From IMG/VR virus record IMGVR_UViG_3300037193_000833, positions 1 to 28,011 of that record: a DNA stretch of 28,011 nt; one strand, written 5' to 3'. The position numbers and the translations under genes are program-made. The DNA comes from a virus. The notes under the pieces were generated by a model, which worked only from the letters and a program-made list of their open reading frames with translations, had not been told where the DNA came from and did not search any database. Shown in pieces: positions 2,277 through 25,436 of this stretch (positions are counted from its first letter, which is position 1; each line of letters starts with the position of its first letter).

Positions 2277-2285
2277 GGAAAGGCC

Positions 2286-4785: not shown

Positions 4786-4810
4786 CGCCAGTCTCCTGTG
4801 TTTGAAAAGA

Positions 4811-4836
4811 GAAAGGCCCGCCGAGGCGAGCCTTTC
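4811..4836 (-). terminator. Intrinsic terminator between capsid and tail modules
   Basis: The minus-strand transcript has two 12-base arms, GAAAGGCTCGCC and GGCGGGCCTTTC, separated by 2 bases and pairing throughout with one U-G wobble. TCTTTTC follows immediately. It lies 27 bases after the stop of the gene at 4863 and before the ribosome binding site at 4786. It probably reduces, rather than abolishes, transcription from capsid into tail genes, since no separate promoter is obvious downstream. Confidence 0.7.
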
Positions 4837-4862
4837 AGTTGAACCAAGCCTTGCGACTTGGG

Positions 4863-5132
4863 TTAGGTTGATGTCAACGCACCGATCGTGATCGTTGCGC
4901 CCGTGCCCGATGTAGACAGTGCGGTGACGCGACCGATCGACAGCGCGTAGCTGTTGTCCGTCTCGACCACTCGCACCATGTCACCGAGCGCCATGCCGAG
5001 GCTCTGGCCATCGCTGAAATAGTCCGTCGCGACGACCTGTGTCGCACCCTCAGTCGAGTGATACACCCACTGCTTCGGCCCGGCGATCGCCTGTGCCTCG
5101 AGGCGCGGAGGATTGGAAGTTGAGTAAGCCAT
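4863..5132 (-). CDS. Small conserved phage protein following the major capsid gene
   Basis: 89 residues starting MAYSTSNPPRLEAQAIAGPK, then WVYHSTEGATQVVATDYFSDGQ and GMALGDMVRVVETD. This Pro-rich N-terminus with a small beta-barrel-like body is a familiar type of short ORF directly downstream of coat genes in podophages and related phages, where it is usually annotated hypothetical. It may be a decoration or head-stabilising protein, which is inference from position. Only 13 bases separate it from the capsid stop, and the terminator at 4811-4836 follows it. Confidence 0.75.
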   Translation of the reverse strand: MAYSTSNPPRLEAQAIAGPKQWVYHSTEGATQVVATDYFSDGQSLGMALGDMVRVVETDNSYALSIGRVTALSTSGTGATITIGALTST

Positions 5133-5145
5133 GTTCAGTTACTCC

Positions 5146-6000
5146 TTACGCCGCAACGTAAGCGCTGCCGTCATGATTCATGACGACCACACCACTGTTT
5201 TGCAGCAACTGCGAGCCCATATCGACCGAGCACCGCGCCCACGAATAGTCCTGCTCTTCGTCGTAACCCACCGGGCTCTTGATACCGGCGGTGTTGACAC
5301 CGTGGCCGATGGCCGACTTGTGATACATGAAACATTTCTCCGCGCTGGTGCCCTTGCCCGGCAGGTTCGGGTGAACGATCCACACCATACCCAACCAGAA
5401 GTAGGCGACCGGCTTGTCGCGCCAGTTCGGATCACCCGACTCCCAGGGCTTCTTGCCACCGACGTACTCGGCGCTTGAGAACTCCTTGGTCTGGCGCATG
5501 TAGCCCATGAACGCCGGAGTCACTAGGGCCGTGATGTTCGAATCCCACGGAACGTCGTTGTTCTGCAGGATCACCTGAGACTTGGTCACAAGCGGAATGT
5601 CCGCCACGACCGCCGCGCCGGTGTTCACCGTGCCCGTATTCAGTTCGGTGATGATGTCGCTGTCAATCTTGCGATTGATGACGCCCATGGACGTCTTCTG
5701 CATGATCTCGCGCTGATTGCCCTGGCTCGCGAAGATGTTGAAGCTCGTCTTGCGTACGAGATCGTGCCACTCGACCAGCGTCGCACTCGTCTGCGTCAGG
5801 TTGTCCGCACGCGCCGGAATGAGCCCGTTGACGCCGCGGGTCGTCGCCTCAGCGCCGCCGGAATCGGCGACAAGGAACGTGATGGTGTTGCCCTTGATGA
5901 CCCCCTCGGTCGTGACCGAGTCGCGCACCAGGGACTGATTCTGCTCGAAACCGGCGATGAACTCAGCCCTATACTGAGTCTGGAATGCTGTATCCGACAC
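5146..6000 (-). CDS. Major capsid (coat) protein
   Basis: 284 residues if translation starts at the GTG at 6000 (VSDTAFQTQYRAEFIAGFEQNQSL). That GTG has GGGAG 8 bases upstream, whereas the TTG five codons earlier has no Shine-Dalgarno. The sequence AEFIAGFEQNQSLVRDSVTTEGVIKGNTITFLVADSGGAEATTRGVNGLIPA is typical of phage coat proteins of the Phage_capsid_2 kind found in podophages, with a presumed HK97-type fold. Later blocks include NNDVPWDSNITALVTPAFMG and SWARCSVDMGSQLLQN near the C-terminus. It follows the scaffold gene, separated by a homing endonuclease gene, as expected for a head module. Family membership is recalled; the structural role is well supported by context. Confidence 0.85.
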   Translation of the reverse strand: MSDTAFQTQYRAEFIAGFEQNQSLVRDSVTTEGVIKGNTITFLVADSGGAEATTRGVNGLIPARADNLTQTSATLVEWHDLVRKTSFNIFASQGNQREIMQKTSMGVINRKIDSDIITELNTGTVNTGAAVVADIPLVTKSQVILQNNDVPWDSNITALVTPAFMGYMRQTKEFSSAEYVGGKKPWESGDPNWRDKPVAYFWLGMVWIVHPNLPGKGTSAEKCFMYHKSAIGHGVNTAGIKSPVGYDEEQDYSWARCSVDMGSQLLQNSGVVVMNHDGSAYVAA

Positions 6001-6204
6001 TTGAAATACTCCCAAGAAAAGGTTGCTGATGCCTTCGCTCGGGTTGGCTGACGATCACCAGTGACGGAGTTGTCGGCGGTGAGCCGGGTCCGTTGTTGGC
6101 AGTCAGAGCCTGCTACAGCAGAGATGTGTTACTCGCCGGGTCCGATGATTCGGGTTGACCGTCTTTCTCACTTTGAGCAATCGAAATTGTTTCAAACTTT
6201 CGCG

Positions 6205-6714
6205 TCAAGAGGCTCTTGCAAATTCGCCGAACAGCCTACTGGCCGCAGCGACATACGCGGCATGTGCTAGTTCTGGTGTTGCGTGAAGGCCAAGATATTC
6301 GTATTGGCCATTGCATTTAATCGATGCGACATACTTGCCGGTGGCCTTGTTGAGCGACACGCCTTTGAACCCGGTCGTATTGTTTGACTGCGGTCTCTTG
6401 TTGGCCATGTTTTGAGAGCCCGTGGACTTGCGGAGATTCTCGAACCGGTTGTCGGTGCGTTCCGTGTTGCGATGGTCAATCTCCTCGGTTGGCATCTCCC
6501 CAGTCATGTAAAGCCACGCCAGCCGATGCGCCAAATACTCCTTGCCATCAACGCCAATCCACCTATACCCGCCGCCGGAGTCCCGAGCCGCCTTGCTCAC
6601 TCGTCCCGCAATCGATCCTGCTGGAGCACTGCGCCCACGGCGGACCTTCCACTTGAACACCCCGATTACCGGATCGTAATCCAGCAACTCCTTGAGCCGC
6701 GCCTGAGTGATCAC
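6205..6714 (-). CDS. HNH homing endonuclease with C-terminal AP2 DNA-binding domain
   Basis: 169 residues from a GTG start that overlaps the scaffold stop (GTGA). The HNH core is seen in LAHRLAWLYMTGEMPTEEIDH with H63, D80 and H81, followed by N83, N89 and N93 (HRNTERTDNRFENLR), the usual HNH_3 layout. The C-terminal part from about residue 114 (TGFKGVSLNKATGKYVASI, then YLGLHATPELAHAAYVAA) is an AP2-type DNA-binding domain. Such free-standing enzymes cut phage alleles lacking the insertion and spread by repair. It lies between scaffold and coat genes, a common target for homing genes. About 200 bases without a gene follow before the coat start, perhaps carried in with it. Confidence 0.92.
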   Translation of the reverse strand: MITQARLKELLDYDPVIGVFKWKVRRGRSAPAGSIAGRVSKAARDSGGGYRWIGVDGKEYLAHRLAWLYMTGEMPTEEIDHRNTERTDNRFENLRKSTGSQNMANKRPQSNNTTGFKGVSLNKATGKYVASIKCNGQYEYLGLHATPELAHAAYVAAASRLFGEFARAS

Positions 6715-7697
6715 GCCGCCTGGCCTCGCGCCTGCAGCTTCTCGCGCGCCGCGTACAGCTGACGCAGGCGCTCTTGCATCTTGGTGTCCCTGTTGTACTC
6801 AGCACGATTGGTGCTCATGACCTTCTCAATCTTCGCAATCTCGCCAGAGACTGAGTTGATCGTCGCCTCGCTGCCCGCCGGAACGATGTGCGACGCCGGG
6901 TTGATCTCGCGCGCCTGGCCAACGAACCACTTCATGAAGTCCGTGTTGTTGAACAGGCGTGTACCGTCCGGCAACGTCGCATCCATCACCAGTGGCTTCA
7001 GCTCGGGACCCAGCGAGTCGAGATACGAGTTTGCGATATTGATGTTCGCGCGATAGTCCGTGCCCCACTCCTGGCGGAGTGCGTCGGTCGCGGTGACGGA
7101 TTGCTCCTGGTCTGCCTTCTGCGCTTTGGCCAGCGCATCGTCCTGCATGCCGTAGTACCACTCGGCCAGATCGTGAATCACCTCAGGCTGGACGTTGCGT
7201 GAGTGCAGTTTGGCTGCGACAGCATCGAACATCGGCTTGTCTTCCGCGCCGATCACGAGCCCGTTGGGCAGCTTCTCGAAATAGCCATCGGGCTTCTCGG
7301 GGATGCCATTGCCCTTGCGCCACTCAGCAACCTGCTCGGGAGTCGCATCCTTCGGCAGCGGCTTGGCGAGCTCGCCCGAGCTGATCTTCTTCACTGCCTC
7401 CCGGTAGGCCTTGCCGAGATCCGCCGGCGAGGCGAAGCGCTCCAACATCTTCACCGCGGCGTCGTCACCGCCGGCAACGTTCTTGCGCCAGTCGAGGGCG
7501 CCAACCAACTCTTGCGGCGTCTTGAAGCTGCTCAGCGCCGCGGTTGCCTGCTCCTTCGCGTCACCGAAGTCGATGCCGCTGTACCAAGTCGCTGTCTGTT
7601 GTTGCGTCTGTTGCGTCTGTTGTGTCTGCTGCTGCGTGGTCTGCGTGGTCTGGGTTGTTTGAGTCGGATCGCCCGTTGTCGTCGTTTGTTCGGTCAC
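6711..7697 (-). CDS. Capsid scaffold protein
   Basis: 328 residues from a GTG start with GGAG upstream. Residues about 12-35 are a low-complexity Thr/Gln repeat (TQTTQTTQTTQQQTQQTQQT). The rest is acidic and helical, with blocks such as RFASPADLGKAYREAVKKIS, LPKDATPEQVAEWRKGNGIP and GYFEKLPNGLVIG, then a charged C-terminal coiled-coil-like segment (GEIAKIEKVMSTNRAEYNRD onward). These features and the position between the portal-side genes and the coat gene match podophage scaffolding proteins, which guide coat assembly and then leave the prohead. The basic C-terminus would be the expected coat-binding end. Confidence 0.85.
   Translation of the reverse strand: MTEQTTTTGDPTQTTQTTQTTQQQTQQTQQTQQQTATWYSGIDFGDAKEQATAALSSFKTPQELVGALDWRKNVAGGDDAAVKMLERFASPADLGKAYREAVKKISSGELAKPLPKDATPEQVAEWRKGNGIPEKPDGYFEKLPNGLVIGAEDKPMFDAVAAKLHSRNVQPEVIHDLAEWYYGMQDDALAKAQKADQEQSVTATDALRQEWGTDYRANINIANSYLDSLGPELKPLVMDATLPDGTRLFNNTDFMKWFVGQAREINPASHIVPAGSEATINSVSGEIAKIEKVMSTNRAEYNRDTKMQERLRQLYAAREKLQARGQAA
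7593..7664 (-). repeat. Low-complexity Thr/Gln codon repeat in scaffold gene
   Basis: About 24 codons are almost entirely ACN and CAR, encoding TQTTQTTQTT then QQQTQQTQQTQQQT. The DNA is therefore a CAA/CAG/ACG trinucleotide-like array that could change length by slippage. It falls in the N-terminal, probably disordered, part of the scaffold protein. Confidence 0.8.
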
Positions 7698-7723
7698 TGC
7701 CTGTCTCCAGTATTGATGGGGGT

Positions 7724-8005
7724 CTACTTCTGCTCTTTCGCCTGCCGAATGGCGGCAAGGTTGAGCTTCGTCATCTTTACCAGCTGCAGACCCACGAACC
7801 GCCTGCCCTCAGCGAACGCTGTATCGCGATCGCTCTCAGGCCGATAGGACAGGTCGTAGGTCGCGCACATCGTGTTGATCAAATAATCGAGCGCCCGACG
7901 CTGCTGATCGGGGGTCGCGTTGCCACGCTGTAGCGCCTGGATCGCAGATACGTCGGCCGGCTCCCACGCGGGTGGGATGTACGGCTGAGATGCGGGCTTC
8001 TTCAA
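7724..8005 (-). CDS. Bbp19-like phage protein
   Basis: 93 residues. The core RRALDYLINTMCATYDLSYRPESDRDTAFAEGRRFVGLQLVKM matches what I recall of the Bbp19-like domain, named after Bordetella phage BPP-1 gene 19, a small protein encoded between portal and scaffold. Function is not established to my knowledge; position suggests a role in head or connector assembly. The ATG overlaps the portal stop (stop at 8002, start at 8005), giving tight coupling. Confidence 0.82.
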   Translation of the reverse strand: MKKPASQPYIPPAWEPADVSAIQALQRGNATPDQQRRALDYLINTMCATYDLSYRPESDRDTAFAEGRRFVGLQLVKMTKLNLAAIRQAKEQK

Positions 8006-9648
8006 GCAGCGGCCTCAAGCGCTTGCTGAGCTTTGCCCGCTTCGCTTGCTACTGCTGCGCCCTGCGCTGCCATCTCAAGCGCCTGCTGAGCCTGCTGCTG
8101 CTCGGCCGTCTTCTGTGCGTGTGCCTCGACCTCATCCTCAGAGCGCATCCACTTGGCCTCCACGCCGATGCCGGTGAGCGCCTCGCGCAACGCCTTGCGA
8201 GCGTCAAGCGTTGCAGCGGTAGACGGATCGACTTCGACCGCTTCGCGCAGCAAGCCTTTCGCCTCGATGAACTTCTGACCCTTCTGCCGCTCGATCGCCT
8301 GGTGTAACGGGGATTCGAACTTGAAGCGCGTGTTCTGGCCGCGAACACTTCGCGGGAACTCCTGCGGCGGGCCGAACGCACCCGTGCGCATCAGCGCTTG
8401 AAATGTCATCTCACACAGCGCGCCGTTGTATTCGTTCTCCATCGGTTCGAAGAGCGGCAGTGCGTTCCGGATGTATTCCTGCGTGCGAAGGCCGACCTCG
8501 TACGCGGTCATCTCGCGATCCGCCGGCGGCAGAGACAGGCGATTCAGATAGAACGCCTGTTGCAGCATCGCCTTCTTCTCTTCGCTCAACTCCATGCCGA
8601 ATGGAATGCCGGACTTGTCTTGCGTGATCGGACGCAACACCTCACCCAGGCGCTCGTCATACTGAGCATCAACCCAGGTGATGCCGCCGGCGTAGACCGA
8701 CACATCTCCGCGGATAGCTTCCTTCGTTGCGATCAGCGGCGGCCGCACGGCCATCTCGCCTGCCTCGAGCAGCGTCAGTGTCATGGCCTGCAGCAAGCGC
8801 GCATCGGGCAATGCCGCCACGGTGGCTGGCGAGTACGCGTACTGCGAACCTGAGACTGTCTGCCACCGGGGAATGCAGTAGAACTGCGACTGCAGTGGCT
8901 GCTCTGAAATCAGGTGATTGTTGTCGAGGTCGATGTAGATGCTGACATGCGTAATCGGGTACAGCCCGTCTCTGCGGTATTTCTGATCCCCATCGTAGTC
9001 GTCGATGGGTATGACGATATGCCGGCACTTGACGGTGCCGTACGGCTCTTTATCGAACCGTTCCACGATATTCTGGTGCAGCTTCTTCTTGCCGAAGATC
9101 GCCATCAGCGTGCGGATGTCCGGGCACCAGTTGCGATGGATGTCGCCTATGGTCCCGTTGTACCGCTCGCACCAGACCACGTCACGCAGATGCCAGCAGC
9201 GATAGAGCAGCGCCGTTGTCGACCAGTCGGTCTCGACCGAAATCACGCATTGGCCGAAGGATGCGAAGTCGTGGTCGCCTTCCTTCGTCGCGCGCACGAA
9301 CTGCGACAGGCGGTCATACATGGCGCGCTTCTGCACGCCGCTAGCCCACTCCAGCCACTCCTTGCCCGAGTTGTCCAAGCCTTCATCGCGGTCGATAGAT
9401 ATGCTGAACCACTCCTGGCCGCGCGGGCGGAGCATGGACGAAATCGCGTCGCCGAGCTCACGACGCACCAGCAAGGGATAACTGGTCGTCAGGTTGCCCG
9501 CATAGTCGTCGCCGATCTCACGCTTGACCGTGAAGTCGCTTCTTTCTACGTAGAAATTTTCTGAAATGTCCTGCCACAGCAGCGTCAGGGTGCTGCGCGC
9601 GGAGAATAGCTGATCGCCTTGAGCAATCAGCTTTTTGAGGTCAAGCAT
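8002..9648 (-). CDS. Portal protein (podovirus head-tail connector family)
   Basis: 548 residues, the usual length for the Head-tail_con family of T7-like and BPP-1-like portals. The N-terminus (MLDLKKLIAQGDQLFSARST...LWQDISENFYVERSDF) and the blocks SAISSMLRPRG-like (here GDAISSMLRPRGQEWFSISID), QCVISVETDW and HLRDVVWCERYNG are characteristic. The block PPLIATKEAIRGDVSVYAGG and then PPADREMTAYEVGLRTQEYI lie in the wing/stem part. The C-terminus is Ala/Gln-rich and helical (EQQQAQQALEMAAQGAAVAS), probably the crown/barrel. It forms the dodecameric vertex through which DNA is packaged. The ATG overlaps the upstream stop (TGATG). Confidence 0.95.
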   Translation of the reverse strand: MLDLKKLIAQGDQLFSARSTLTLLWQDISENFYVERSDFTVKREIGDDYAGNLTTSYPLLVRRELGDAISSMLRPRGQEWFSISIDRDEGLDNSGKEWLEWASGVQKRAMYDRLSQFVRATKEGDHDFASFGQCVISVETDWSTTALLYRCWHLRDVVWCERYNGTIGDIHRNWCPDIRTLMAIFGKKKLHQNIVERFDKEPYGTVKCRHIVIPIDDYDGDQKYRRDGLYPITHVSIYIDLDNNHLISEQPLQSQFYCIPRWQTVSGSQYAYSPATVAALPDARLLQAMTLTLLEAGEMAVRPPLIATKEAIRGDVSVYAGGITWVDAQYDERLGEVLRPITQDKSGIPFGMELSEEKKAMLQQAFYLNRLSLPPADREMTAYEVGLRTQEYIRNALPLFEPMENEYNGALCEMTFQALMRTGAFGPPQEFPRSVRGQNTRFKFESPLHQAIERQKGQKFIEAKGLLREAVEVDPSTAATLDARKALREALTGIGVEAKWMRSEDEVEAHAQKTAEQQQAQQALEMAAQGAAVASEAGKAQQALEAAA

Positions 9649-9908
9649 CAGCCGCCCAACCGATCCTTGTCGCCACCGGTCAGGATCGTCGACGCACGGC
9701 CGCCGCCGCGTCCGGACACGCCCCGACGCTTGCTGCGCTTGATCTCTTCCTCATCGGCCATGGGAATCGCAGGCTCGTTAGATTGGGGCATCTCTGGCGT
9801 AAAGCTCGAATACGCGTTCTCCATCTCCTTGTTAACCTTCCTGGCCATCCGAAAGTGCAATCCTTCCTTAGGAAGGGCCTTCCTCGCTGTTCTGTGTAGA
9901 CCAGACAT
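9648..9908 (-). CDS. Small conserved phage protein between TerL and portal
   Basis: 86 residues from the ATG that follows the TerL stop directly (TGAATG). A second candidate start, MARKVNKEMENAYSSF at residue 21, may be the conserved beginning, so the first 20 residues are uncertain. The C-terminal RRGVSGRGGGRASTILTGGD is a GRASTIL-type tail that I recall from many short phage proteins near portal genes. It is Arg/Gly-rich and probably disordered. Function unknown. Both ends overlap or abut neighbours, indicating coupling. Confidence 0.75.
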   Translation of the reverse strand: MSGLHRTARKALPKEGLHFRMARKVNKEMENAYSSFTPEMPQSNEPAIPMADEEEIKRSKRRGVSGRGGGRASTILTGGDKDRLGG

Positions 9909-11510
9909 TCAGTGCTTCCTCATGCCATTGGGCCTGCGCGGGCCGTAGTTCACCGCTGGCGCACGTCCGCGCCGGGCGTTCTCTTGTGTCCAGATCTTTG
10001 CGTGGGTCATTGCTCGAGCGCCGTCGTACCAACTCATGATCACGGCGTCACCCTTGTCCGTTGAGCGCCCGAGCGCTTCGCAAACGTCCTCTTTGGAGAG
10101 GACCTTGATTCCCCGGGGTGTCACTTCGAACGTGAGCGCCGTGAGATCTGCAACCATCTCGGGATCCGGCGGCAACGCAATCGGGCTGCCGCCTTCCTGC
10201 GAGGGGTCGAGCGCCTCCCGGAACTGCCAACATGCTTGCGATCGCTTGTTATAGAAGCCGAGCTTCTGATCTTTCGTCCTGCGCACCGAGGCTTCGGCCC
10301 CTTTGTACGCAGTCACGCTCTCGCTGCCGATGTTCTCGATGAGCGTCTCGTACAGCGGGCCGCCATACCCGCCGCCCATGTCGACAACGACCTTTGCACC
10401 GTGCTCCCGATGCGAAATCACGATGCCGGCGCAGTACTTGCCGATGCGCTCGATCGGGATGTCTCTTCCTTCAACCTTAATGAGCGGCGGGTACCAGCCA
10501 TCATAGCGACTGGCGATCACCATCGGATCATTGCCGCCGCCCGACGCATCAACGCCCATCGAGCACATGGGCACGTTGTGCGGTTTGGTTTCAGTCCATC
10601 GCGCCTGGGCTGCCTTGACCCATGCAGTAGGAATCACCTGGAATTCCTGATCCTGCCGCGCGAGCATGAAATTGCCGCTGACCAGGATCTCGCGAACTTC
10701 GGGCGGCAATGCCGCCAATGTCTTCGCGTACTCCTCGGCGTTGTAGTACGGGTTATCGGTGAACTTCGAAGGGATGTACGTTCGCGACTGCGCGTAAACA
10801 GTCACGCCACCGATGACCGCACTATCCCCCTTCTGACACTCGCGATCCTTCCCGCCATCGATCGGCAGGAAGTAGCGCAACTCGCCGGGCTTGGCAGGGT
10901 TCGGATGCGTGGGGTTCAGCCACGGTCCGAAGTAATCAATCATCCAATCGCCCGTGCTATCGAGCGGAGGATTGCTCCCCAGCACCACGCGGCAACGCTG
11001 CCCCGGCCGGTCGGTGCGCAACCAGCCCATCAGGAGCCGAACCTGTTTCTCTGGGATCTGAGCTGCCTCATCGATGCAGATCAGATCGTGGTCGACGCCT
11101 TGGTGCCCACCGATGCCACCATCGGAAGCAAGACCCGCGAAGTGAATCACCCCGCCATCGGGCTTGCGATACTTCGGTCGGGCGCCACCGACGAACCCTT
11201 CTTCTGAGCCGACCAGCTTTTTCGCCGTGTCGATCAGACCTTCCAGGTCCGTGAAGCTCTTGCGAACGATCAGCGTGCGGTGGTGCTCATTGAGCCCCAG
11301 ACCAATCTCCAGCGCGCTCTTGCCGCCACCTGGGCTCCCACCGAACAGCAGCACGTCAGCCTGGCTGAAATACGCGTCGGTTTGCGGCCCCTCGCTCGGA
11401 ATGAATGCGTCGTCCTTCGTCGACTCAATCGCATCCTTGATGACCTGTTGCCTGTCCTTGGTCGGTAACGAGTTCAGCCGACCAAGAATGTCATCGAGCA
11501 GCCGAGTCAT
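9909..11510 (-). CDS. Terminase large subunit (packaging ATPase-nuclease)
   Basis: 533 residues. Walker A is GGSPGGGKS at residues 57-65 and Walker B is DLICIDEAA at about 142-150, followed by a coupling segment VVLGSNPP. The C-terminal RNase H-like nuclease begins with GVDASGGGNDPMV and contains VVVDMGGGYGG, carrying the expected acidic residues. The protein pumps DNA through the portal and cuts concatemers. It follows two accessory ORFs after TerS, which is unusual spacing but within one operon. No clear Shine-Dalgarno lies close to the ATG; a GGGAAG sits about 16 bases upstream. Confidence 0.95.
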   Translation of the reverse strand: MTRLLDDILGRLNSLPTKDRQQVIKDAIESTKDDAFIPSEGPQTDAYFSQADVLLFGGSPGGGKSALEIGLGLNEHHRTLIVRKSFTDLEGLIDTAKKLVGSEEGFVGGARPKYRKPDGGVIHFAGLASDGGIGGHQGVDHDLICIDEAAQIPEKQVRLLMGWLRTDRPGQRCRVVLGSNPPLDSTGDWMIDYFGPWLNPTHPNPAKPGELRYFLPIDGGKDRECQKGDSAVIGGVTVYAQSRTYIPSKFTDNPYYNAEEYAKTLAALPPEVREILVSGNFMLARQDQEFQVIPTAWVKAAQARWTETKPHNVPMCSMGVDASGGGNDPMVIASRYDGWYPPLIKVEGRDIPIERIGKYCAGIVISHREHGAKVVVDMGGGYGGPLYETLIENIGSESVTAYKGAEASVRRTKDQKLGFYNKRSQACWQFREALDPSQEGGSPIALPPDPEMVADLTALTFEVTPRGIKVLSKEDVCEALGRSTDKGDAVIMSWYDGARAMTHAKIWTQENARRGRAPAVNYGPRRPNGMRKH

Positions 11511-11569
11511 GAGCGGTCAGCCGGACTTCCCGCCGCGGGAGCATTGGTAAGCTTCCGACCAACCGCCCA

Positions 11570-12277
11570 TCATTCAGCCCAGGTATTGAGGACGTAGTTC
11601 AAGTCGTCCAACGCGCCCTTCAGAAAGAACTGCTCGCGCACGGTGTTCTCGTACGTGGCCTGACACGATGCGAGCCGTGCCTCAATCTCCTTCTTTCGCG
11701 CCAGCAGCTTGATGTGCATCGGAGACGTCTCCGAGAGTCCGTACAGCGGCGGCGGCCGCAATAGATCGGACTCAGGCGGAATGGTGACGGTGATCCCGCG
11801 ACCCTTCGCCAACGTGATGAAGTGGTGACAGCCCGCGCGCTGATAGCCATATTCCTCGGTCGCGGACATATCCACACCCCACAGCCCGATCTCTTCGATG
11901 CCGGGCTGCTCGAGCGCCAGCGCAAACATCCAGGCCAGGGATGACGTAAAGAAGTACGGGCCGTACTTGGCGATCATCTGCTCGCGCGGGTACCGCACCG
12001 AGCTCGGAACCGCGGCCTGCACTTCGGACATGTAGACCGGCGTGTCATGCGCGGCCAGCTCAGCAAGCCACTGGCAATACTCCGGCGTGAACCACGGCAC
12101 CTGTTTGGCCGGACTGCCCACGACTGGCGGTTCCCAGCGATGCAACTCGAACCACGCATCGCACCGCTCGATGATGGGATACGCCCCGGGCGAGCAGCCC
12201 CAAATCGTCCAGCTCTGATCCTGATACGGCGCCAACCGGATCGACGTTGGCGCGCTCCCAACGAGAGCAATCCTCAT
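11570..12277 (-). CDS. Conserved phage protein of unknown function in terminase module
   Basis: 235 residues. The N-terminus MRIALVGSAPTSIRLAPYQD resembles a Rossmann-like start, followed by WTIWGCSPGAYPIIERCDAW. The middle has KYGPYFFTSSLAWMFALALE and EEIGLWGVDMSATEEYGYQR, and the C-terminus is helical (REQFFLKGALDDLNYVLNTW). I recall this architecture as a recurrent phage protein near terminase genes, sometimes compared with DUF115-like or glycosyltransferase-like folds, but no activity is established. The ATG overlaps the upstream stop (ATGA). Confidence 0.8.
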   Translation of the reverse strand: MRIALVGSAPTSIRLAPYQDQSWTIWGCSPGAYPIIERCDAWFELHRWEPPVVGSPAKQVPWFTPEYCQWLAELAAHDTPVYMSEVQAAVPSSVRYPREQMIAKYGPYFFTSSLAWMFALALEQPGIEEIGLWGVDMSATEEYGYQRAGCHHFITLAKGRGITVTIPPESDLLRPPPLYGLSETSPMHIKLLARKKEIEARLASCQATYENTVREQFFLKGALDDLNYVLNTWAE

Positions 12278-12690
12278 GAAGTGCCCGTCATGGTCGTGTC
12301 AGTGCTCGTGCGGCCGAGCACGCCCCACAGCGACGTCGTCAGACCCACGAGCGTCAGGCTGGCCCCGCCAGAGGCAAAGCTGGCCTTCACCAGCGTCGAT
12401 CCGTCCGTCGATTGGATGTACAGCGCGGTGCTGACACGAGTGACGGTGCGTGCGAGCGTTGACGTGGTCAGCGTCGTCAGTCGCTTGATGGCGCCCACGA
12501 AAGCAGGCGGATCCAGCGTAAACGCCGTCGCTGCGCTCGACATGGTCGCCACCCCGGGATAGCCATCGATGGCGGCGCTCGATGCTGACGTATACGCGGT
12601 GACGCCCAACCAGTCGCGCCCATCGCGAATCGGCTTCTTCGTGACCGAGTCGAACCCGGTGGCTCGACCGTGCAGTGAAACGTAAGGCAT
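12274..12690 (-). CDS. Phage hypothetical between TerS and TerL
   Basis: 138 residues starting MPYVSLHGRATGFDSVTKKP, with GAGGAAA 6 bases before the ATG. The remainder is Ser/Thr-rich and probably beta-structured (ATMSSAATAFTLDPPAFVGA, then TLTTSTLARTVTRVSTALYI). No signal peptide or enzyme motif. Such composition suits a virion surface or fibre-associated protein. The gene overlaps the next one by ATGA and lies about 120 bases after TerS. I do not recognise the family. Confidence 0.65.
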   Translation of the reverse strand: MPYVSLHGRATGFDSVTKKPIRDGRDWLGVTAYTSASSAAIDGYPGVATMSSAATAFTLDPPAFVGAIKRLTTLTTSTLARTVTRVSTALYIQSTDGSTLVKASFASGGASLTLVGLTTSLWGVLGRTSTDTTMTGTS

Positions 12691-12809
12691 AACGATTTCC
12701 TCAGAAATGAATCTGCTTGCTGCTTGTGCCAGGTCCGTGCTGGCTGCTGTCGAACCCTATCGGCCGGGTCGTGGCTTCCGGTTCAAAACGTGCTTGTCAT
12801 ACGGGCGCA

Positions 12810-13355
12810 TCAGAGCGGCTTCTCCTGCGCCTTCACACCCTTGGCCAGGGCGAATGCGATTCGGCGCGCGATCTCGGTCTCGGTCATGTCCGCCGTTTCG
12901 ATTGGGCCGCCGTCCCGGCCGGTGTGCTCGACGCGGTCGTTGAACAATTTGAGATGCTTTCCTAGCAGTTCGGCACCTTTCAACGCGCTCTTTGAGTCGA
13001 ACACATAAGCAGGCGCGAGCGTGCCGTTCGCGGTCTCCACCAGTACCGGCATCCCTTGTCGATCTAAAACCGGTGTCGCCTGCTTGCAGCGCTCAACGAC
13101 CTCATAGACCGTTGCCAGCACGTAATCCGTAGTGATCCTTGTTCGAGCGGCACGCTGATCCATCGCTGCCTGTATAGCATCCGCTATTTCAGGTTTGCTC
13201 AGGTTCTCATTGCCTATGGAGTAGGCCGTGTCCTCGCTGTACCCGGCTCGAATGGCGGCCTGCGTTGCATTCAAATCAACGAGATACTCTTGAACGAACG
13301 CCGCCTGCTTTGGCGTCAGACGCTTTGGCCGAGTCTCCTGGGCCTCGTCACTCAC
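12810..13355 (-). CDS. Terminase small subunit
   Basis: 181 residues from a GTG with GGAG 6 bases upstream. The N-terminal RLTPKQAAFVQEYLVDLNATQAAIRAGYSEDTAYSIGNENLSKPEIADAI is the Terminase_2 helix-turn-helix signature. The middle SKSALKGAELLGKHLKLF and the acidic C-terminal part are also typical. TerS recognises the packaging site and delivers DNA to TerL. It lies upstream of TerL, separated by two ORFs of unknown role. The packaging site probably lies in or near this gene, but I cannot identify it. Confidence 0.92.
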   Translation of the reverse strand: MSDEAQETRPKRLTPKQAAFVQEYLVDLNATQAAIRAGYSEDTAYSIGNENLSKPEIADAIQAAMDQRAARTRITTDYVLATVYEVVERCKQATPVLDRQGMPVLVETANGTLAPAYVFDSKSALKGAELLGKHLKLFNDRVEHTGRDGGPIETADMTETEIARRIAFALAKGVKAQEKPL

Positions 13356-13364
13356 AATGGTCTC

Positions 13365-13772
13365 CTAGTTCCGATGGTCTTTGCCGGCACGGCTGATGTG
13401 CATCTGGCCGTTGCGCTTTTCGATGTAGTCGCCGCGGTTGAGCACGGCGAAAAGGGTGCTGCCGCCGTAGATGCTCAGCAGTTCGCATTCCACCAGCATC
13501 CATACGCCATAGGGCTGGAGGAATTCATTGAAGGCCGGGACGTTCGTTCCATCCCAGGTGATTCTCTCGGGGAGCGGCACTCCGGCGCGCGCGATGCCAA
13601 GGCGGTCGCCGTCCAGCATTACGGTATCGCCAAGGCCGAGTTCAACATTGAGGCCGATACCGACCAGTCGGAGCTTGTCGCCGTGCTTGTCTGCGCGAGC
13701 GAGATGATTGCTCAATAGCCGCTCGATGTCGGCCGCATTGTCGCCATCCCATTGGACGCTAGGGAATGCCAT
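13365..13772 (-). CDS. Phage hypothetical upstream of TerS
   Basis: 135 residues starting MAFPSVQWDGDNAADIERLL. Blocks include GDTVMLDGDRLGIARAG and WDGTNVPAFNEFLQPYG. It looks like a small globular alpha/beta protein without membrane or secretion signals. It starts one base after the stop of the upstream gene and ends 9 bases before TerS. I do not recognise the family; placement suggests expression with the late genes. Confidence 0.65.
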   Translation of the reverse strand: MAFPSVQWDGDNAADIERLLSNHLARADKHGDKLRLVGIGLNVELGLGDTVMLDGDRLGIARAGVPLPERITWDGTNVPAFNEFLQPYGVWMLVECELLSIYGGSTLFAVLNRGDYIEKRNGQMHISRAGKDHRN

Positions 13773-13773
13773 G

Positions 13774-14259
13774 TCAGTACAGCCCGATCTCGCGCCACTT
13801 GATCGTGCCGTTCATCGTGATGGCATCTGCGGGGATGGTGATGCGCACGACGGTGATAGTGGAAACCTCAATCTTTGGCCGCTCATTGTCGACTTCGGTC
13901 TTGAGTGGCTTGTACAGCCAGCCACCCTGGACGTTGAACGCTTCTGAGTGCAGGACCACGGCCGTACCGCCTGAGGCGATCGTCGTGTTGTTTCGGGCAA
14001 CAGTGATCGCTGACGACCGGCTCCACGGCTCGAAGTTCGCAGGGGTTACGGCTGCCCCGCCGGATCCGGCAACTGTGTGCCCGCGGACGATCTGCACCGA
14101 GAGCATTTCCGCGGCTGCGTCGCCGGCATCCGAGTACTGCCCGAGGAATATCTCGCAGATCTCAATGCGAGACGTTGCGCCAGTGGTGAGTTCGAACACG
14201 TCCTGCGCAGCCGAAACCGCTACAGCACTGAATGTCGCCGTGAAGATGGGGCCGTTCAT
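13774..14259 (-). CDS. Beta-rich phage structural-type hypothetical
   Basis: 161 residues starting MNGPIFTATFSAVAVSAAQD, with AGGA 7 bases before the ATG. Blocks such as FELTTGATSRIEICEIFLGQ, SDAGDAAAEMLSVQIVRGHT and a C-terminal ITIPADAITMNGTIKWREIG recall a recurrent phage protein with jelly-roll-like beta structure found with virion genes in many siphophages and podophages. It is probably a virion component, but the role is unknown. Confidence 0.7.
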   Translation of the reverse strand: MNGPIFTATFSAVAVSAAQDVFELTTGATSRIEICEIFLGQYSDAGDAAAEMLSVQIVRGHTVAGSGGAAVTPANFEPWSRSSAITVARNNTTIASGGTAVVLHSEAFNVQGGWLYKPLKTEVDNERPKIEVSTITVVRITIPADAITMNGTIKWREIGLY

Positions 14260-14267
14260 GTCAGTCC

Positions 14268-14702
14268 TTACTGTAAAAGTCGCGTGCGCCGAACGATCAC
14301 TGAAATGATGCCAGTCTCGCTCGGGTTAGCCGCACCAGCTGTCGTGGATGTGAATGTATCGCTGACGCCACCGATCGTGACGACGGTGTCTGTCGCGGTC
14401 GAATTCGATGCGCTGCTCGTGTGTCTTGCGCGCACCTCATCACCACTCTCCACTGTCCCAGCATCGGCGGTGAATGCACCACCATTGATGCTGTAGGTGC
14501 CGCCGGTGACCGTGATGTCCGCTGCTGCATCTATCCCTGTGATCGTGACTGGCGCTGAGGTAATCTCGGTCGACGTCGCGACGTTGAAACGATCGGCGAA
14601 CGTGAATTGGTCGGGCGTGGTGTCGCCTGCCTCCTGCGCCCAGATAGCCGTGTTCCAAATGGCCTCATCCCAGATCTCGCCCCAGATGATCCCGATGGCC
14701 AT
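14268..14702 (-). CDS. Small Ig-like beta-sandwich phage protein
   Basis: 144 residues. The N-terminus is Trp/Ile-rich (MAIGIIWGEIWDEAIWNTAI). From residue about 30 it contains one copy of a familiar beta-sandwich repeat (PDQFTFADRFNVATSTEITS, then TVTGGTYSINGGAFTADAGT and SNSTATDTVVTIGGVSDTFT), seen in bacterial and phage surface proteins. The C-terminus is basic. The ATG sits just after the stop of the upstream gene. Probably a virion decoration or adhesion protein; that is inference from the fold type. Confidence 0.7.
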   Translation of the reverse strand: MAIGIIWGEIWDEAIWNTAIWAQEAGDTTPDQFTFADRFNVATSTEITSAPVTITGIDAAADITVTGGTYSINGGAFTADAGTVESGDEVRARHTSSASNSTATDTVVTIGGVSDTFTSTTAGAANPSETGIISVIVRRTRLLQ

Positions 14703-14705
14703 CTA

Positions 14706-15575
14706 TCAGACACCGAAGGGCGATCCGGAGCCGTCGCCAGTCACAGCGACAGTGTTGATCTGCTCGACGTTCGCGTCGATGGGATCAGCGGCAGCGGCAG
14801 CGAGAACGGCAGCGCCAACCTCGGTTCCAAAGTCCGCTGCAGTCGCTGCGGCGGTCAGCGTGTTCGCGGCCATGGCGCCAACGCTCGAGTCCATCCGGCC
14901 ACTCACCAGATTGTTGATTGCGGACCCATTCACTTGAGTGACATTCGACGTCAGCGGAGCGCTCGTTGATCCGCCCGCCGGCACTGTCGTCACTAGATCG
15001 CTGGTAGCAATCGTAAAGATCGGCGCGGCCTCGAGAGTGACCGTGCGGGTAGCTCCAACGTAATCACTTGCGAACGCCACGCCCTTTTGAACGGCACTTG
15101 ATGCATCCGTGAAGATAAAGGCCATGCCGTTGTAGGCGTCGTTGTCGGCGCTTCCGGCCGTGAGCGTGAACTCGGTCTGGGTCGCGAGCGTGGCAATCGT
15201 CGAATCATTCAGGTACGTGGCGCGCGCGAGCTTCGCCATCTCTGTGCCGCTATGGATTTCATCCCAACGAGCAGCAGTGACCACCTCATAGCTGTCTTCG
15301 AAGGCTAGTGCGCCCGAAACATGCACGAATACCTTCAGTGGTCCGAGCGTGTCAGTGTCGGTCGCATCGAGGGTCGCGTGATAAATGCCGTTGCTGATGT
15401 GCGTGGCACCACCGGAATTCTTGTTCGCGAGCGTCGTCGTACCGTTCTTCCACAGCTTGATGTCGGTGTTGGCGATCGTCAGCCCGGTTTCTTCGGTGTT
15501 CCCATCGGCGCTGTCAACGAAATAGCCGAGCGGGATCTCCTGAGAGGCCGTTGATTGCTTCAAGTACTTAGCCAT
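14706..15575 (-). CDS. Phage virion-associated hypothetical (upper-baseplate/fibre type)
   Basis: 289 residues starting MAKYLKQSTASQEIPLGYFV. The segment DSADGNTEETGLTIANTDIK, then NKNSGGATHISNGIYHATLD and TDTLGPLKVFVHVSGAL, is a recurrent module in phage fibre-associated proteins. The C-terminal half is Ala-rich with SAINNLVSGRMDSSVGAMAA and ends without a transmembrane segment. Its start overlaps the upstream gene by 8 bases. It very likely belongs to the virion, possibly part of an adsorption apparatus with its beta-rich neighbours. Confidence 0.72.
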   Translation of the reverse strand: MAKYLKQSTASQEIPLGYFVDSADGNTEETGLTIANTDIKLWKNGTTTLANKNSGGATHISNGIYHATLDATDTDTLGPLKVFVHVSGALAFEDSYEVVTAARWDEIHSGTEMAKLARATYLNDSTIATLATQTEFTLTAGSADNDAYNGMAFIFTDASSAVQKGVAFASDYVGATRTVTLEAAPIFTIATSDLVTTVPAGGSTSAPLTSNVTQVNGSAINNLVSGRMDSSVGAMAANTLTAAATAADFGTEVGAAVLAAAAADPIDANVEQINTVAVTGDGSGSPFGV

Positions 15576-16263
15576 TTGCCGCCCGCATCATTGAGTAATA
15601 CCGACGTATCGCCGCAATCGATGATCCGGCGCTCTCCCCCACCAGAATCGTCGACTTGATCGTCGTCGTTTCGGCGTCGTCCGACGTGAAAGAAATATTA
15701 GTTCCGCCACTTGGGTTCACGATGTATCCGAAAAACGCTCTGACATTCCCACCGGTATCGATGGAAGTGAAGTCGCCGTCTTCCGTGTAACCTCCGTTTG
15801 TACGGCCCACCGCGACCAGCATGAAATCCGTCGTTCCGGGAGGCGTCAGTGTTCCGCCGGTATGCGTCGTTTGAGCCGATGTGGTCGTGTTGTTGTTCTG
15901 TGCGCCTGATTGGTCGGACGTCAGTCCCGAGACCTCGAGCACCGCGACCTGGAGCGGATCACCGCTGTTGCCGGACAGCGTTACAACAACGCTTTGCCCA
16001 GCGTTGTTCGCCGCGACCGTGCCCTCGTAGATATCCACATTCGACGCGCCCGGAGTCGCCGTCGTGCCGACGATCGTGTACGTCGTCCCTGCCGCATCCG
16101 CCACACTAGTGACAGTGCGAACCGTCTCGTTGACGATCGCCACGACGATCTTGTTGCCATTGACTGCAACATTCCCGCCGGCCAATGAGACGGGATTCGT
16201 CTCATTGAGACCGCCTGGAGGTCCCTCAAACGCACCGGCAATGGATCGAACGTGTGCGCTCAT
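15568..16263 (-). CDS. Beta-sandwich phage hypothetical
   Basis: 231 residues starting MSAHVRSIAGAFEGPPGGLN. It is rich in Thr, Val, Gly and Asn (VTSVADAAGTTYTIVGTTAT, then NNTTTSAQTTHTGGTLTPPG), with the alternating pattern of a beta sandwich. A short helical basic tail ends the protein (SIAAIRRYYSMMRAANG). The ATG overlaps the upstream beta-helix gene stop (ATGA). No catalytic motif seen. Probably a structural or adhesion protein in the same unit. Confidence 0.68.
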   Translation of the reverse strand: MSAHVRSIAGAFEGPPGGLNETNPVSLAGGNVAVNGNKIVVAIVNETVRTVTSVADAAGTTYTIVGTTATPGASNVDIYEGTVAANNAGQSVVVTLSGNSGDPLQVAVLEVSGLTSDQSGAQNNNTTTSAQTTHTGGTLTPPGTTDFMLVAVGRTNGGYTEDGDFTSIDTGGNVRAFFGYIVNPSGGTNISFTSDDAETTTIKSTILVGESAGSSIAAIRRYYSMMRAANG

Positions 16264-17738
16264 GCTCGCGGCCCAATGGTAGGACTGCTGGCATGACAGC
16301 CAATCTGCCCGCCGATGCCGCCGATGCCGTCCGAGCTCCCCATCGTCAAAGCCGGGCTACCCACGTTGAGCACGCCTGTGGTGGTGCTCGCAAAGTCCGG
16401 ATCATCCACAGATGAGTTTTCATCACGCGAGTTCACCGGATTTCCTGTCTCCAACATCGATTGCCAATTCGCCAATGTGGTCTGTGTGCTGCTGTTCCAC
16501 TGGCCACGAAATCCGCCCGCCGATCCGTTCCAGTACAAGTTGCTTCTCAGCCGACCGAATGTGCTGGTGGAGCTGGACAGGTCAACGTGATTGCGCGTTG
16601 ATCCCGATGTCACGACGACGATGTTGTCGTGATTCCAGTTATCTGCGCCGAAATTCGCTGCATCCAGTGAACCGAAAGCCGCCACCACCCCACTTCCGGC
16701 ATCCAGGATGATCGTGTTGTTATACGCACGCGTATTTCGGCAGGGCGTGCTGCCCGCGTTCGCGTAACTGATCGCGACCTCTGATATCCCACGAAGCAAA
16801 TTCTGCCGCACCCGCGTGACATTCGTCGCGTGCGTCTCCTGCATGAACATCCCGTTCGGGCAGTCTGCAAAATCGTTCTTCTCGACGATCAGGTAATTCT
16901 CCGTCGCACCCGATCCGCCAGAATTTCCCTTGATATAGATGGCGTTATAGATGTTCGTGAAGCGGTTGTTTGCTATGAGCCCGTTCAGCACGCTGTAACA
17001 GGTGAGCCCTGCAACGTTTCGGTTGTTCGCGCCCGAGAAAATGAAGTTCCTGACGTCATTGTCCGTGAACTCCATGTCCGTGATGTTGTCCGCCCACACC
17101 GCACTCGGATTCGAATGATCCTCGACGCTGTAGTCGCCACTTCGGCCGATGCCGTCGATGTAGCACCAACGAACGGCACAGCCGGTGCACGATCCACCGC
17201 CGTGGTAGAACAGCACCGCCCCTTCATCGATGCCAAATGCGCCGTTGCTGTGGCTCAGGACAAACCCGAGCATCTCGACATTCGACACACCGACAAAGCC
17301 GATGTGCGCCTTGTCATCGCCGCCGCCGACCTGGCTCGTTCCGTCGTGCGCCAACTCGGTCCGGTCCGCGTTTGTAAGCGGCGTCGACAGATTCGCGCCC
17401 GCATACTCGGCGAAATGTATGATTTTTTCAGTTGAACTACGCCCGGAATTCGCCGGGCTGAACGACGGCAACCCGCCACTCGTGTGATGCGTGGTGTTGC
17501 TCGCGCGGGTATACAAACTGCCGTTTCCGGCCAGCCAGCAGATGTATGTGTTTCTTCCCTCGAAAGTCGACGCGGTTGCTAACGCAAGCGCTTGCGTCGG
17601 AGTCCACGGACTGCCGAATGATCCATCTCCCGATCCGCCAGCAGATGCCGAAACGTAGAAATCCGCTGATTCAGCCGATGGATACGCGCTCTGGCTCTGG
17701 ACCTGATTTATGCTGCTTCGAACAAAGAGAAAGCTCAC
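16260..17738 (-). CDS. Second right-handed beta-helix protein (tailspike-like)
   Basis: 492 residues from a GTG at 17738; no Shine-Dalgarno is evident, so the start is uncertain. Near residue 27 the stretch FYVSASAGGSGDGSFGSPWT is a typical entry to a parallel beta-helix domain. Repeated N/G-turn coils follow (TGCAVRWCYIDGIGRSGDYS, GLIANNRFTNIYNAIYIKGN, LIVEKNDFADCPNGMFMQET). No signal peptide is seen. It heads the block of beta-rich ORFs upstream of TerS, far from the tail module. It may be a second receptor-binding or glycan-degrading protein; catalytic residues cannot be assigned by eye. Confidence 0.75.
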   Translation of the reverse strand: MSFLFVRSSINQVQSQSAYPSAESADFYVSASAGGSGDGSFGSPWTPTQALALATASTFEGRNTYICWLAGNGSLYTRASNTTHHTSGGLPSFSPANSGRSSTEKIIHFAEYAGANLSTPLTNADRTELAHDGTSQVGGGDDKAHIGFVGVSNVEMLGFVLSHSNGAFGIDEGAVLFYHGGGSCTGCAVRWCYIDGIGRSGDYSVEDHSNPSAVWADNITDMEFTDNDVRNFIFSGANNRNVAGLTCYSVLNGLIANNRFTNIYNAIYIKGNSGGSGATENYLIVEKNDFADCPNGMFMQETHATNVTRVRQNLLRGISEVAISYANAGSTPCRNTRAYNNTIILDAGSGVVAAFGSLDAANFGADNWNHDNIVVVTSGSTRNHVDLSSSTSTFGRLRSNLYWNGSAGGFRGQWNSSTQTTLANWQSMLETGNPVNSRDENSSVDDPDFASTTTGVLNVGSPALTMGSSDGIGGIGGQIGCHASSPTIGPRA

Positions 17739-18799: not shown

Positions 18800-19007
18800 C
18801 TCGCTTGGTCGTGAGCAGTGGGAACGCGATCAGATCAGCAATGGACCGGTCCACTTTCGGGCGTCGCCGCGGTTTCGGCTTGGGCTGAGCCTCCTGCTCT
18901 CGCATTTCATCGACGATCACTTTCAGCAGCTTCTGGCGATCGGCCGAGCTGGCAGCCGCCAGACGTACCGTCTGCTCGGGCGTCAGAAGCTTGCCGCCTC
19001 TGATCAC
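18786..19007 (-). CDS. Small basic phage hypothetical
   Basis: 73 residues from a GTG that overlaps the upstream stop (GTGA). The sequence is helical then basic: LLTPEQTVRLAAASSADRQK, LLKVIVDEMREQEAQ, then KPKPRRRPKVDR. No domain recognised. The coupling to the fibronectin gene supports translation. The 14-base convergent overlap with the acyltransferase end suggests that gene was placed next to an existing operon. Confidence 0.6.
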   Translation of the reverse strand: MIRGGKLLTPEQTVRLAAASSADRQKLLKVIVDEMREQEAQPKPKPRRRPKVDRSIADLIAFPLLTTKRVRRA

Positions 19008-19579
19008 AGTACGATCTTGCTTACGATGTTCGACGGCGGATCGCTCTGATCCCCATCGGCCGCGTAAGCCCGGATCGCGAAATAATAGGTACCTGGCGCC
19101 AGATTGCTGACCGTGTAGCTGCTGATGCCTGGGTTCGCTACCTGGATTGTCTGTGTCATCGCATCCGGCGATGCGCCGTAGTGGATCCGGTATCCGGCAA
19201 GGTCCGTTAATGGGCTGCCATCGTTGTTTTGTAACCGCGGCGTCCAGGACAGCACTGCCTGCCTCACCGGCACTACTGGATCCGGCGTGACGGTGGAATA
19301 GCGCCGCGCGTTGTTACACCAACGGACCGCCTGGGTGGTCACTGCCGCCACCGCTGCCTTGCGCGTCTCCGCCGCGGTCATGGCTCGCGTGATCGCCTGG
19401 AGCCTATAGCAGTCGAGTTTGGCCGCCTCTTCAGTGGCGCCTTGGCCATACGCAATGATGGACGTGCCCTGATGCAGGTCGGCCCGCCAGTACACGGTGG
19501 ACTCGGCCGCCAGCGCCACGCCCGCGACGAGCAAGCACAGGCCAACCGCCACTACCGCGGCAGTGAACGAGAGACGCAT
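19004..19579 (-). CDS. Secreted fibronectin type III domain protein
   Basis: 191 residues from the ATG at 19579, chosen because it has GGAG 8 bases upstream and begins a clear signal peptide (MRLSFTAAVVAVGLCLLVAG, then VALAAES, cleavage near residue 25). The frame is open further upstream but that part is not protein-like. A helical segment with Cys57 and Cys88 follows, possibly a disulfide. Residues about 105-190 form a fibronectin III domain (AVLSWTPRLQ, AGYRIHYGASPD, YTVSNLAPGTYYFAIRAYAA). It is the first gene after the late promoter and terminator. A signal peptide on a late phage gene suggests a periplasmic or envelope role rather than a virion part; function is unknown. Confidence 0.8.
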   Translation of the reverse strand: MRLSFTAAVVAVGLCLLVAGVALAAESTVYWRADLHQGTSIIAYGQGATEEAAKLDCYRLQAITRAMTAAETRKAAVAAVTTQAVRWCNNARRYSTVTPDPVVPVRQAVLSWTPRLQNNDGSPLTDLAGYRIHYGASPDAMTQTIQVANPGISSYTVSNLAPGTYYFAIRAYAADGDQSDPPSNIVSKIVL

Positions 19580-19674
19580 CGGGGGGGCTCCGGTGTTAGA
19601 GGCCCCTATGTCCGCCTCGTGCAACTCAATGTGCATCTGTGTCGTAGTGACGGGCGGGAGGGGCCGAAAACGAA

Positions 19675-19698
19675 GAACCCCGCTCGGGGGCGGGGTTC
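19675..19698 (-). terminator. Intrinsic terminator just after late promoter (tR-prime-like)
   Basis: The minus-strand transcript reads GAACCCCGC, a 6-base loop, then GCGGGGTTC, a perfect 9-bp stem, followed by TTCTTCGTTTT. It lies only about 20 bases downstream of the start point predicted from the promoter at 19724-19752, so unmodified transcription should stop almost at once. This is the geometry expected of a Q-type antitermination target. Confidence 0.85.
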
Positions 19699-19723
19699 GG
19701 GGATAGTTTTGACCAGTACTTGC

Positions 19724-19752
19724 TTTATATGAATTTACCCGTTGCTTGTCAA
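19724..19752 (-). promoter_or_regulatory. Probable phage late promoter (PR-prime-like)
   Basis: On the minus strand TTGACA (19752-19747) is followed by a 17-base spacer and TATAAA (19729-19724). This is a near-consensus sigma-70 promoter. The -35 overlaps the last codons of the Q-like gene. The next element is a strong terminator and then the entire late operon. It is the best promoter I see in the window and needs no activator by its sequence. Confidence 0.85.
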
Positions 19753-20270
19753 TGCTCCGAAAGCTTCGCACGGCCTCGCAACTGCGCCTCGTATCGATAG
19801 TTAACAAGCATGCGTCCAAGCGCCTTCCTTGCTCGTCGCAGGCGCTCATTCATCGCATCGACCGTCGTCCCCAAGACTTCCGCCTTCTCTTTTGCGGAGA
19901 ACTCCCGCGCGTACACTGCACCTATCGCAAAGTTCACCGCGATAGCTTGGAACTGAGGCTCTGGCAGCAGGTTGACCGCCTTGTTCACGGCGAGGAGCGT
20001 CGGCGATACGTACCAGCAGCATTCCGAGAGAATGCGGTGACCGCCGTAATATGGATTCTGCTTGCCCTGTGCTGTGAGCTGGGACACCTGGAACCAATCG
20101 CGCGGCTCGTACAGTTCCACCCGTCCAACGCTCGTCGACTGCTCCGGGAAGCCGCCGGACAGCCCAACGCGCCAACGCGCCCGGCCCCAGTACTCCAACA
20201 GCGCATTCAGTTCGCGCCAATGGAGCGATGGCAGTTCATCAGTTGTTTCTTCCGCCATGACTGCACTCAC
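19749..20270 (-). CDS. Putative late gene antiterminator (Q-like) with sigma-region-4-like HTH
   Basis: 173 residues from a GTG with GGAG 6 bases upstream. The N-terminal half is Trp-rich (LPSLHWRELNALLEYWGRAR). The C-terminal half has AVNFAIGAVYAREFSAKEKA then EVLGTTVDAMNERLRRARKA, the layout of a sigma-70 region 4-like HTH seen in phage Q-, RinA- and ArpU-type late regulators. It is the last gene of the early operon. Directly after it come a strong promoter and a terminator, as Q precedes PR-prime and tR-prime in lambdoid phages. Length is close to phage 21 Q. The role rests on context plus the HTH; sequence identity to known Q proteins is not claimed. Confidence 0.7.
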   Translation of the reverse strand: MSAVMAEETTDELPSLHWRELNALLEYWGRARWRVGLSGGFPEQSTSVGRVELYEPRDWFQVSQLTAQGKQNPYYGGHRILSECCWYVSPTLLAVNKAVNLLPEPQFQAIAVNFAIGAVYAREFSAKEKAEVLGTTVDAMNERLRRARKALGRMLVNYRYEAQLRGRAKLSEH

Positions 20271-20605
20271 CGCTGTCTCCTGCCGCCCTTGATCTCTCGA
20301 ACTTTCCGACCGTACAGCGCCGCGAACAGGCGCTTACGCAGTGGCCAATCCCGAGCAGCCCTGCCCTTCACATCCTCCGTAACCAGGTCGTCACCTTCGA
20401 TGTACTCGGAATCGCATGTGTACTTGCCCACCTTCTCGCCGTTGACGATCAGCGGGTATTCAACGTGCAGTTTCAGGTCACGGATCTGGCCGGCGCGCTC
20501 GAGCAGCTTTAGTTCGCCGTAACGCTTGGCCTCTGCCTTGCTCGCGAACTTGATACCGTCGACCTCACACGGCTTGGCGCCATATTTGTTGGCGCGCGCT
20601 CTCAC
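20267..20605 (-). CDS. DUF1064 family protein (putative phage nuclease)
   Basis: 112 residues from a GTG overlapping the upstream stop (GTGA). NKYGAKPCEVDGIKFASKAEAKRYGELKLL is the DUF1064 signature. The later YIEGDDLVTEDVKG carries the acidic and lysine residues of a PD-(D/E)XK-like core (E in SKAEAKRY, D and K in EDVKG). Family members are proposed Holliday-junction or DNA-processing nucleases in phages. The ORF is coupled to the Q-like gene by overlap. Confidence 0.85.
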   Translation of the reverse strand: MRARANKYGAKPCEVDGIKFASKAEAKRYGELKLLERAGQIRDLKLHVEYPLIVNGEKVGKYTCDSEYIEGDDLVTEDVKGRAARDWPLRKRLFAALYGRKVREIKGGRRQR

Positions 20606-20793
20606 TGCCCCTTCCTCGGTAGCCTCGGGCTGGCTTCCAACCGTTCGCCTTTCGCTACAAGGTGCCTAGCTCGCTCCACACCCACGCCGAGCTCTGCGCC
20701 GATCTGCTTCAGCAGTTTCCCCTCTCGACGCAAGGCAAGCGCTTTGGCGGCGCGCGCCCGAGATGCCCGTGTGATCTCAACCATCGTTGGCAT
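20602..20793 (-). CDS. Small HTH protein
   Basis: 63 residues from the ATG at 20793 (MPTMVEITRASRARAAKALA), chosen because GGGAG lies 6 bases upstream; the frame is open further upstream but overlaps the preceding gene deeply. LLKQIGAELGVGVERARHLV is a plausible helix-turn-helix, and the protein is strongly basic. Probably a small DNA-binding regulator. It overlaps the upstream gene by 17 bases and the downstream DUF1064 gene by GTGA. Confidence 0.65.
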   Translation of the reverse strand: MPTMVEITRASRARAAKALALRREGKLLKQIGAELGVGVERARHLVAKGERLEASPRLPRKGQ

Positions 20794-25404: not shown

Positions 25405-25436
25405 AATTAAAAATCCGCCGGCTGTGACACCGGCGG
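25405..25436 (-). terminator. Intrinsic terminator inside the early operon
   Basis: The minus-strand transcript reads CCGCCGG, an 8-base loop, CCGGCGG complementing it, then ATTTTTAATTT. It lies 43 bases after the stop of the CII-like gene and before the winged-helix gene. Unless a separate promoter exists downstream, replication genes would need read-through or antitermination here. Confidence 0.8.

Follow-up and report, generated by a model that had tools for sequence, protein, structure and literature searches.

We find that the window analysed here, a stretch of 28,011 bases that constitutes IMG/VR virus record IMGVR_UViG_3300037193_000833, very probably carries a Q-type late-gene switch of a temperate phage, in which a regulator gene, a promoter and a terminator follow one another in the order Q / PR' / tR'. 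Judged from its sequence, the 173-aa product of the regulator gene appears to be a diverged Q-like antiterminator that may act like those of the 21Q/AlpA type. Many environmental temperate phages have late genes without a recognisable regulator, and a Q-type switch could be found by its layout, namely a regulator stop codon on the -35 element and a hairpin within about 50 nt, despite a protein too diverged for family models.

The putative regulator gene and its product

The Q-like gene (19749..20270, minus strand) encodes 173 aa from a GTG start, with an in-frame ATG about 4 codons further on, and its assignment draws on the open reading frame, the Sigma70_r4_2 and NCBIfam matches, and its rank in a search with a Q profile. 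As the initial annotation had proposed for an HTH gene ending at a TTGACA-N17-TATAAA promoter, its stop codon is a TGA inside the TTGACA -35 hexamer (19752-19747). The protein combines an N-terminal LLEYWGRARW motif with a C-terminal sigma-region-4-like HTH. Pfam returned Sigma70_r4_2 alone (E 2.3e-4, below the cut-off), and NCBIfam a sigma-factor model (E 7e-7, far below the cut-offs) restricted to the C-terminal part. No Q family was matched in Pfam, PHROGs or NCBIfam, in keeping with the earlier remark that the protein is not obviously a known Q; the lambda Q family and RinA/ArpU-type activators were absent among these matches, and PF06530 had no match in the window at E 10, nor any by hmmscan. 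Because a match to the family model was lacking, we do not file the protein in PF06530. A sigma-region-4-like HTH is nevertheless what a Q protein is expected to have, since the contact of 21Q with its site resembles that of sigma R4 on the -35 element (PMC6606751) and since the Q of phage YA3 combines a PF06530 match with a sub-threshold Sigma70_r4 match. Two genes upstream of Q, a second small protein (20602-21051, minus strand) also gave a weak sigma-region-4-like HTH match.

AlphaFold models of the protein, computed from 2 or 1 input sequences, reached pLDDT values of 39 and 48, which is too low for comparing folds; the nearest structures in the PDB were sigma-factor domains, with non-significant E-values. 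A PDB sequence search did not have the AlpA chain among its matches. Close relatives of the protein were confined to a single IMG/VR contig, L002, with none in GTDB genomes, GenBank phages or plasmids.

Promoter, leader and terminator

The PR'-like promoter (19724..19752, minus strand) consists of a TTGACA -35 hexamer, a 17-base spacer and a TATAAA -10 hexamer (19729-19724), and matches the consensus at 11/12 positions. It is the sole site of at least 10/12 on both strands of the window, while 0.075 sites of at least 11/12 are expected per dinucleotide-shuffled window; a scan demanding T at the last -10 position overlooks it. DNA-pattern searches for the promoter otherwise gave only chance matches, which fell in coding or AT-rich DNA. 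Transcription is predicted to start at 19717 (minus strand), 7 nt past the -10 hexamer. The spacer between the hexamers reads AGCAACGGGTAAATTCA (spacer block of the promoter, AGCAACGGG) and is the likely place of the predicted Q-binding element, although no direct-repeat element like that of phage 21 was found in it. Two copies of a short AAGCA repeat, AAGCG in L002, lie around the promoter (window 19747-19717; L002:4527-4557), the variable base having changed in both copies; with copies 23 nt apart, the repeat is too short to be claimed as a binding site.

The promoter is followed by a tR'-like intrinsic terminator (19666..19698, minus strand) with a 9-bp stem and an interrupted T-run, recognised by its hairpin, its folding and its conservation in L002. 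The hairpin has GC arms of 9 nt (19675-19683 and 19690-19698) that are 100% complementary and enclose a 6-nt loop, its stem beginning at about +20 and 50 nt after the Q stop, which bears out the perfect 9-bp hairpin noticed some 20 bases past the predicted start. On the minus strand TTCGTTTTCG stands 3' of the hairpin, and since the U-tract is interrupted, the strength of the terminator is uncertain. The leader folds with -23.2 kcal/mol (z -3.2). Within the stretch 19717-19660 (minus strand), leader GGUCAAAAC can also pair with GUUUUCGGCC past the hairpin and so enclose the terminator, a pairing poorly kept in L002. Candidate -10-like pause elements in the first transcribed bases, the NANNNT hexamers AAAACT and AACTAT (19703..19710, minus strand), are weak, as are those of L002, and their register is not conserved relative to L002; a convincing element of this kind was not found in the window.

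Conservation in related phages

The 55-kb contig L002 carries at the Q position a protein 84% identical to that of the window. Its promoter agrees with the window's at 25/29 bases, both hexamers and the spacing of 17 bases being unchanged, and its hairpin is 83% identical and stands at equal distance, whereas the coding DNA is 77%, the leader 59% and the stretch past the terminator 65% identical. Given these lower values for leader and post-terminator stretch, promoter and hairpin represent the conserved parts.

In L019, a 54-kb contig of a sister phage whose terminase is 82% identical to the window's, the Q-position protein (157 aa, with an HTH) shows no significant pairwise resemblance to that of the window, and TTGACA once more covers the stop codon of the HTH gene; the -10 hexamer is weak, and a long, strong terminator starts 54 nt past the stop. 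In this part of the contig (L019:2171-2260), the first transcribed bases contain TAAGCTGCCGTT, which is identical to the stretch annotated in phage 21 as its pause-element region and stands 36 bases from the -35, equal to the phage 21 distance. One other same-register run of at least 12 bases turned up in ~354,000 windows, a 13-base match in L038 at a gene start, which we attribute to chance. With a different regulator next to the pause-element sequence of phage 21, L019 points to a replacement of Q proteins within a promoter frame that persists. L037, from a phage whose terminase is 68% identical to the window's, shows DUF1064, then a 164-aa protein with the shared WGRA-RW...G-YP motif, then a near-identical hairpin; its promoter is weak (8/12). 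The terminase used as bait in GTDB genomes found nothing.

Profile comparison with known Q proteins

A profile was assembled from the Q proteins, 15 in number, of known phages and the DLP12 prophage, none of them from the contigs studied here. We ran it against 458 ORFs that measure 100-250 codons and lie in the window or in related contigs, a background that is only approximate because many of these ORFs are not real genes. The Q-position proteins ranked 1 (L019), 3 (L002), 4 (L037) and 5 (window), and their scores were reached by 0, 2, 3 and 31 of 4000 shuffles, respectively. These amount to three independent lines rather than four, as the L002 protein is closely related to that of the window, whose own score is weak (3.3 bits). 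The matches are colinear, comprising an N-terminal LLE-WGR motif and then the C-terminal HTH (weak matches at hmm 9-22 and 96-121 for the window, 8-23 and 81-124 for L002), so that the window protein presents the order of an N-terminal WG helix motif followed by a sigma-R4-like HTH that is a trait of 21Q. A profile-profile comparison with enteric Q proteins recovered the WG motif only, at a probability below 2%, which is non-significant alone. Taken at the level of sequence, the resemblance of the Q-position proteins to the Q profile is weak but specific. Gene order, promoter, terminator, conservation in L002 and this blind profile test thus all fit the Q / PR' / tR' order that had been suggested at the outset.

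Genomic setting

Directly upstream of Q lies a gene for a DUF1064 Holliday-junction-resolvase-like protein (20267..20605, minus strand; Pfam 7.9e-17, PHROG 1.1e-29), preceded on the same strand by small HTH and hypothetical genes and a DnaB/Toprim primase-helicase. The succession of a resolvase gene and a Q-position gene is common to the window, HK639, HK629 and DLP12; the temperate podovirus F116, which also has DUF1064, was rejected as a parallel, a different protein following its DUF1064. The first gene past the terminator encodes an fn3 protein with an N-terminal signal-like stretch (19004..19579, minus strand; Pfam fn3 2.2e-6), and its relatives occupy the equal position in L002 and L019. 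Beyond it, the late region (1..17738, minus strand) comprises tail-spike-like, small and large terminase and other structural genes, as judged from ORFs and, for the terminases, PHROGs. The initial annotation had placed all late genes beyond the switch; this holds for the structural genes, which are found downstream of it on the same strand, yet an acyltransferase gene with an O-antigen acetylase-like PHROG (17810-18799, plus strand) stands antisense among them. It is missing between the corresponding genes of L002 and L019 and is probably a lysogenic-conversion gene.

A P22-Cro-like gene (26290-26565, minus strand) and a CI-like gene (26242-27051, plus strand) face each other at the far end, a pair that fits a temperate lambdoid plan, and the gene order of the window (immunity, replication, resolvase, Q, late genes) is lambdoid. 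Its terminase belongs to the BPP-1-like podovirus type (~40% identity), and BPP-1 itself showed no block comparable to Q, promoter and terminator. Three further features of this end were recorded: a strong hairpin that has a T-rich tail and lies near the beginning of the cro-side operon (25415-25436, minus strand), which could be a tR1-like early terminator; a strong 9-bp terminator directly 3' of the CI-like gene (27074-27098, plus strand); and an ORF (27424-28011, plus strand) that passes, at the contig end, into a long low-complexity stretch rich in alanine, a possible assembly edge.

Alternative explanations and proposed mechanism

Could the HTH protein instead be a sigma-like activator or an alternative sigma subunit for the late promoter, with the hairpin merely closing the early operon? 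Sigma region 4 is indeed its best library match and the C-terminal part alone matches, yet neither a sigma region 2 nor a full-length ECF/sigma-70 match was found, and the WG motif near the N-terminus forms part of the Q-profile matches. Moreover, a promoter near-consensus for the housekeeping sigma would hardly need activating, and a terminator placed past it would cut the late transcript short as well, so that we regard such an activator as quite improbable. The terminator might also be an ordinary end-of-operon element beside a constitutive promoter, the late genes being controlled elsewhere and partial read-through being enough, as the interrupted U-tract, with which termination may be partial, would allow. 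We hold this to be very improbable, as L002 keeps promoter and hairpin together while their surroundings diverge, L019 has an equivalent set with the phage 21 pause element, and an unblocked strong constitutive late promoter would be harmful to a phage that has CI-like and Cro-like genes. Hardly credible, finally, is a regulatory small RNA, in which the short terminated transcript would itself be the product and read-through incidental: the short leader folds well and shows extra pairing around the hairpin, but from promoter to hairpin it is poorly conserved (59%), unlike a conserved small RNA, and the late genes come next.

We therefore prefer the Q-type switch, for which the following course can be envisaged. 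Host RNA polymerase would initiate constitutively at the near-consensus promoter and, when the 173-aa protein is absent, would halt at the hairpin after ~45-50 nt. The protein would be produced from the final gene of the early operon, either upon induction or at a late stage of infection. It may then bind with its HTH to the -35/-10 spacer just downstream of its own gene and load onto an early paused polymerase, whose RNA exit channel its N-terminal part would narrow such that the hairpin cannot form, and the loaded polymerase would then read through into the late genes. A bolder version, which we consider unlikely, holds that the protein founds its own Q family with an N-terminal nozzle non-homologous to those of 21Q, lambda Q, 82Q and AlpA, that its loading site, immediately ahead of the terminator, is a single one without a repeat, and that sister phages swap unrelated Qs into one conserved promoter-terminator frame.

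Comparison with known Q systems

The Q / PR' / tR' system of lambda follows a logic equal to that of the window switch but belongs to a different Q family. Its leader before tR' is long, so lambda is the wrong yardstick for leader length, and the initial proposal that a short leader marks a distinct antiterminator class is not supported: the geometry of phage 21 is equal, an AlpA-controlled terminator begins as early as +26, and the hairpin, 50 nt after the Q stop in the window, starts at 47 nt in HK629, 52 in IME1369, 63 in HK639, 64 in SE1, 73 in Pm34, 76 in CF3a and 108 in zjk6. Loading of lambda Q also requires an extra -35-like element (PMC6606751).

In phage 21 (PF06530; OL657228.1; PDB 6jnx, 6p18), likewise, Q closes the early operon and its stop is the place of a TTGACA, the terminator falls inside the first ~50 nt of the transcript (annotated at ~+3 to +50 in its record) and the late genes lie beyond, and 21Q shares with the window protein the sigma-R4-like HTH and a WG motif in the first helix. 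The window nevertheless departs from phage 21: a TGAGCA direct repeat is missing from its spacer and a pause element is not recognisable, its protein has no Pfam match to the 21Q family and more residues from the WG motif to the C-terminal helices, and past the terminator it carries the fn3 gene where phage 21 has tRNAs and lysis genes. Pseudomonas phage Qs such as that of YA3 (PF06530) resemble the window protein in a WGKW / WGRW motif and a sigma-r4-like HTH, yet they are recognised by Pfam whereas the window protein is not, and the YA3 terminator lies 224 nt from the late promoter (PMC7326022).

AlpA of Pseudomonas aeruginosa is an antiterminator that lacks sequence similarity to Q proteins and has a structure like that of 21Q; its element lies between -35 and -10, and, unlike the proposed switch of the window, it controls cell-lysis genes (PMC7969949, PMC9371919). 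The two systems are alike in their short leaders, AlpA-controlled terminators beginning at +26 (PA0807 promoter) and +54 (PMC7969949). While 21Q uses two binding sites, AlpA uses one (PMC9371919), and as one protomer suffices, a direct repeat is not needed in an AlpA-type system. Furthermore, the three recognised Q families are already without significant mutual sequence similarity (PMC9371919), so that the sequence divergence of the window protein alone is not new in kind.
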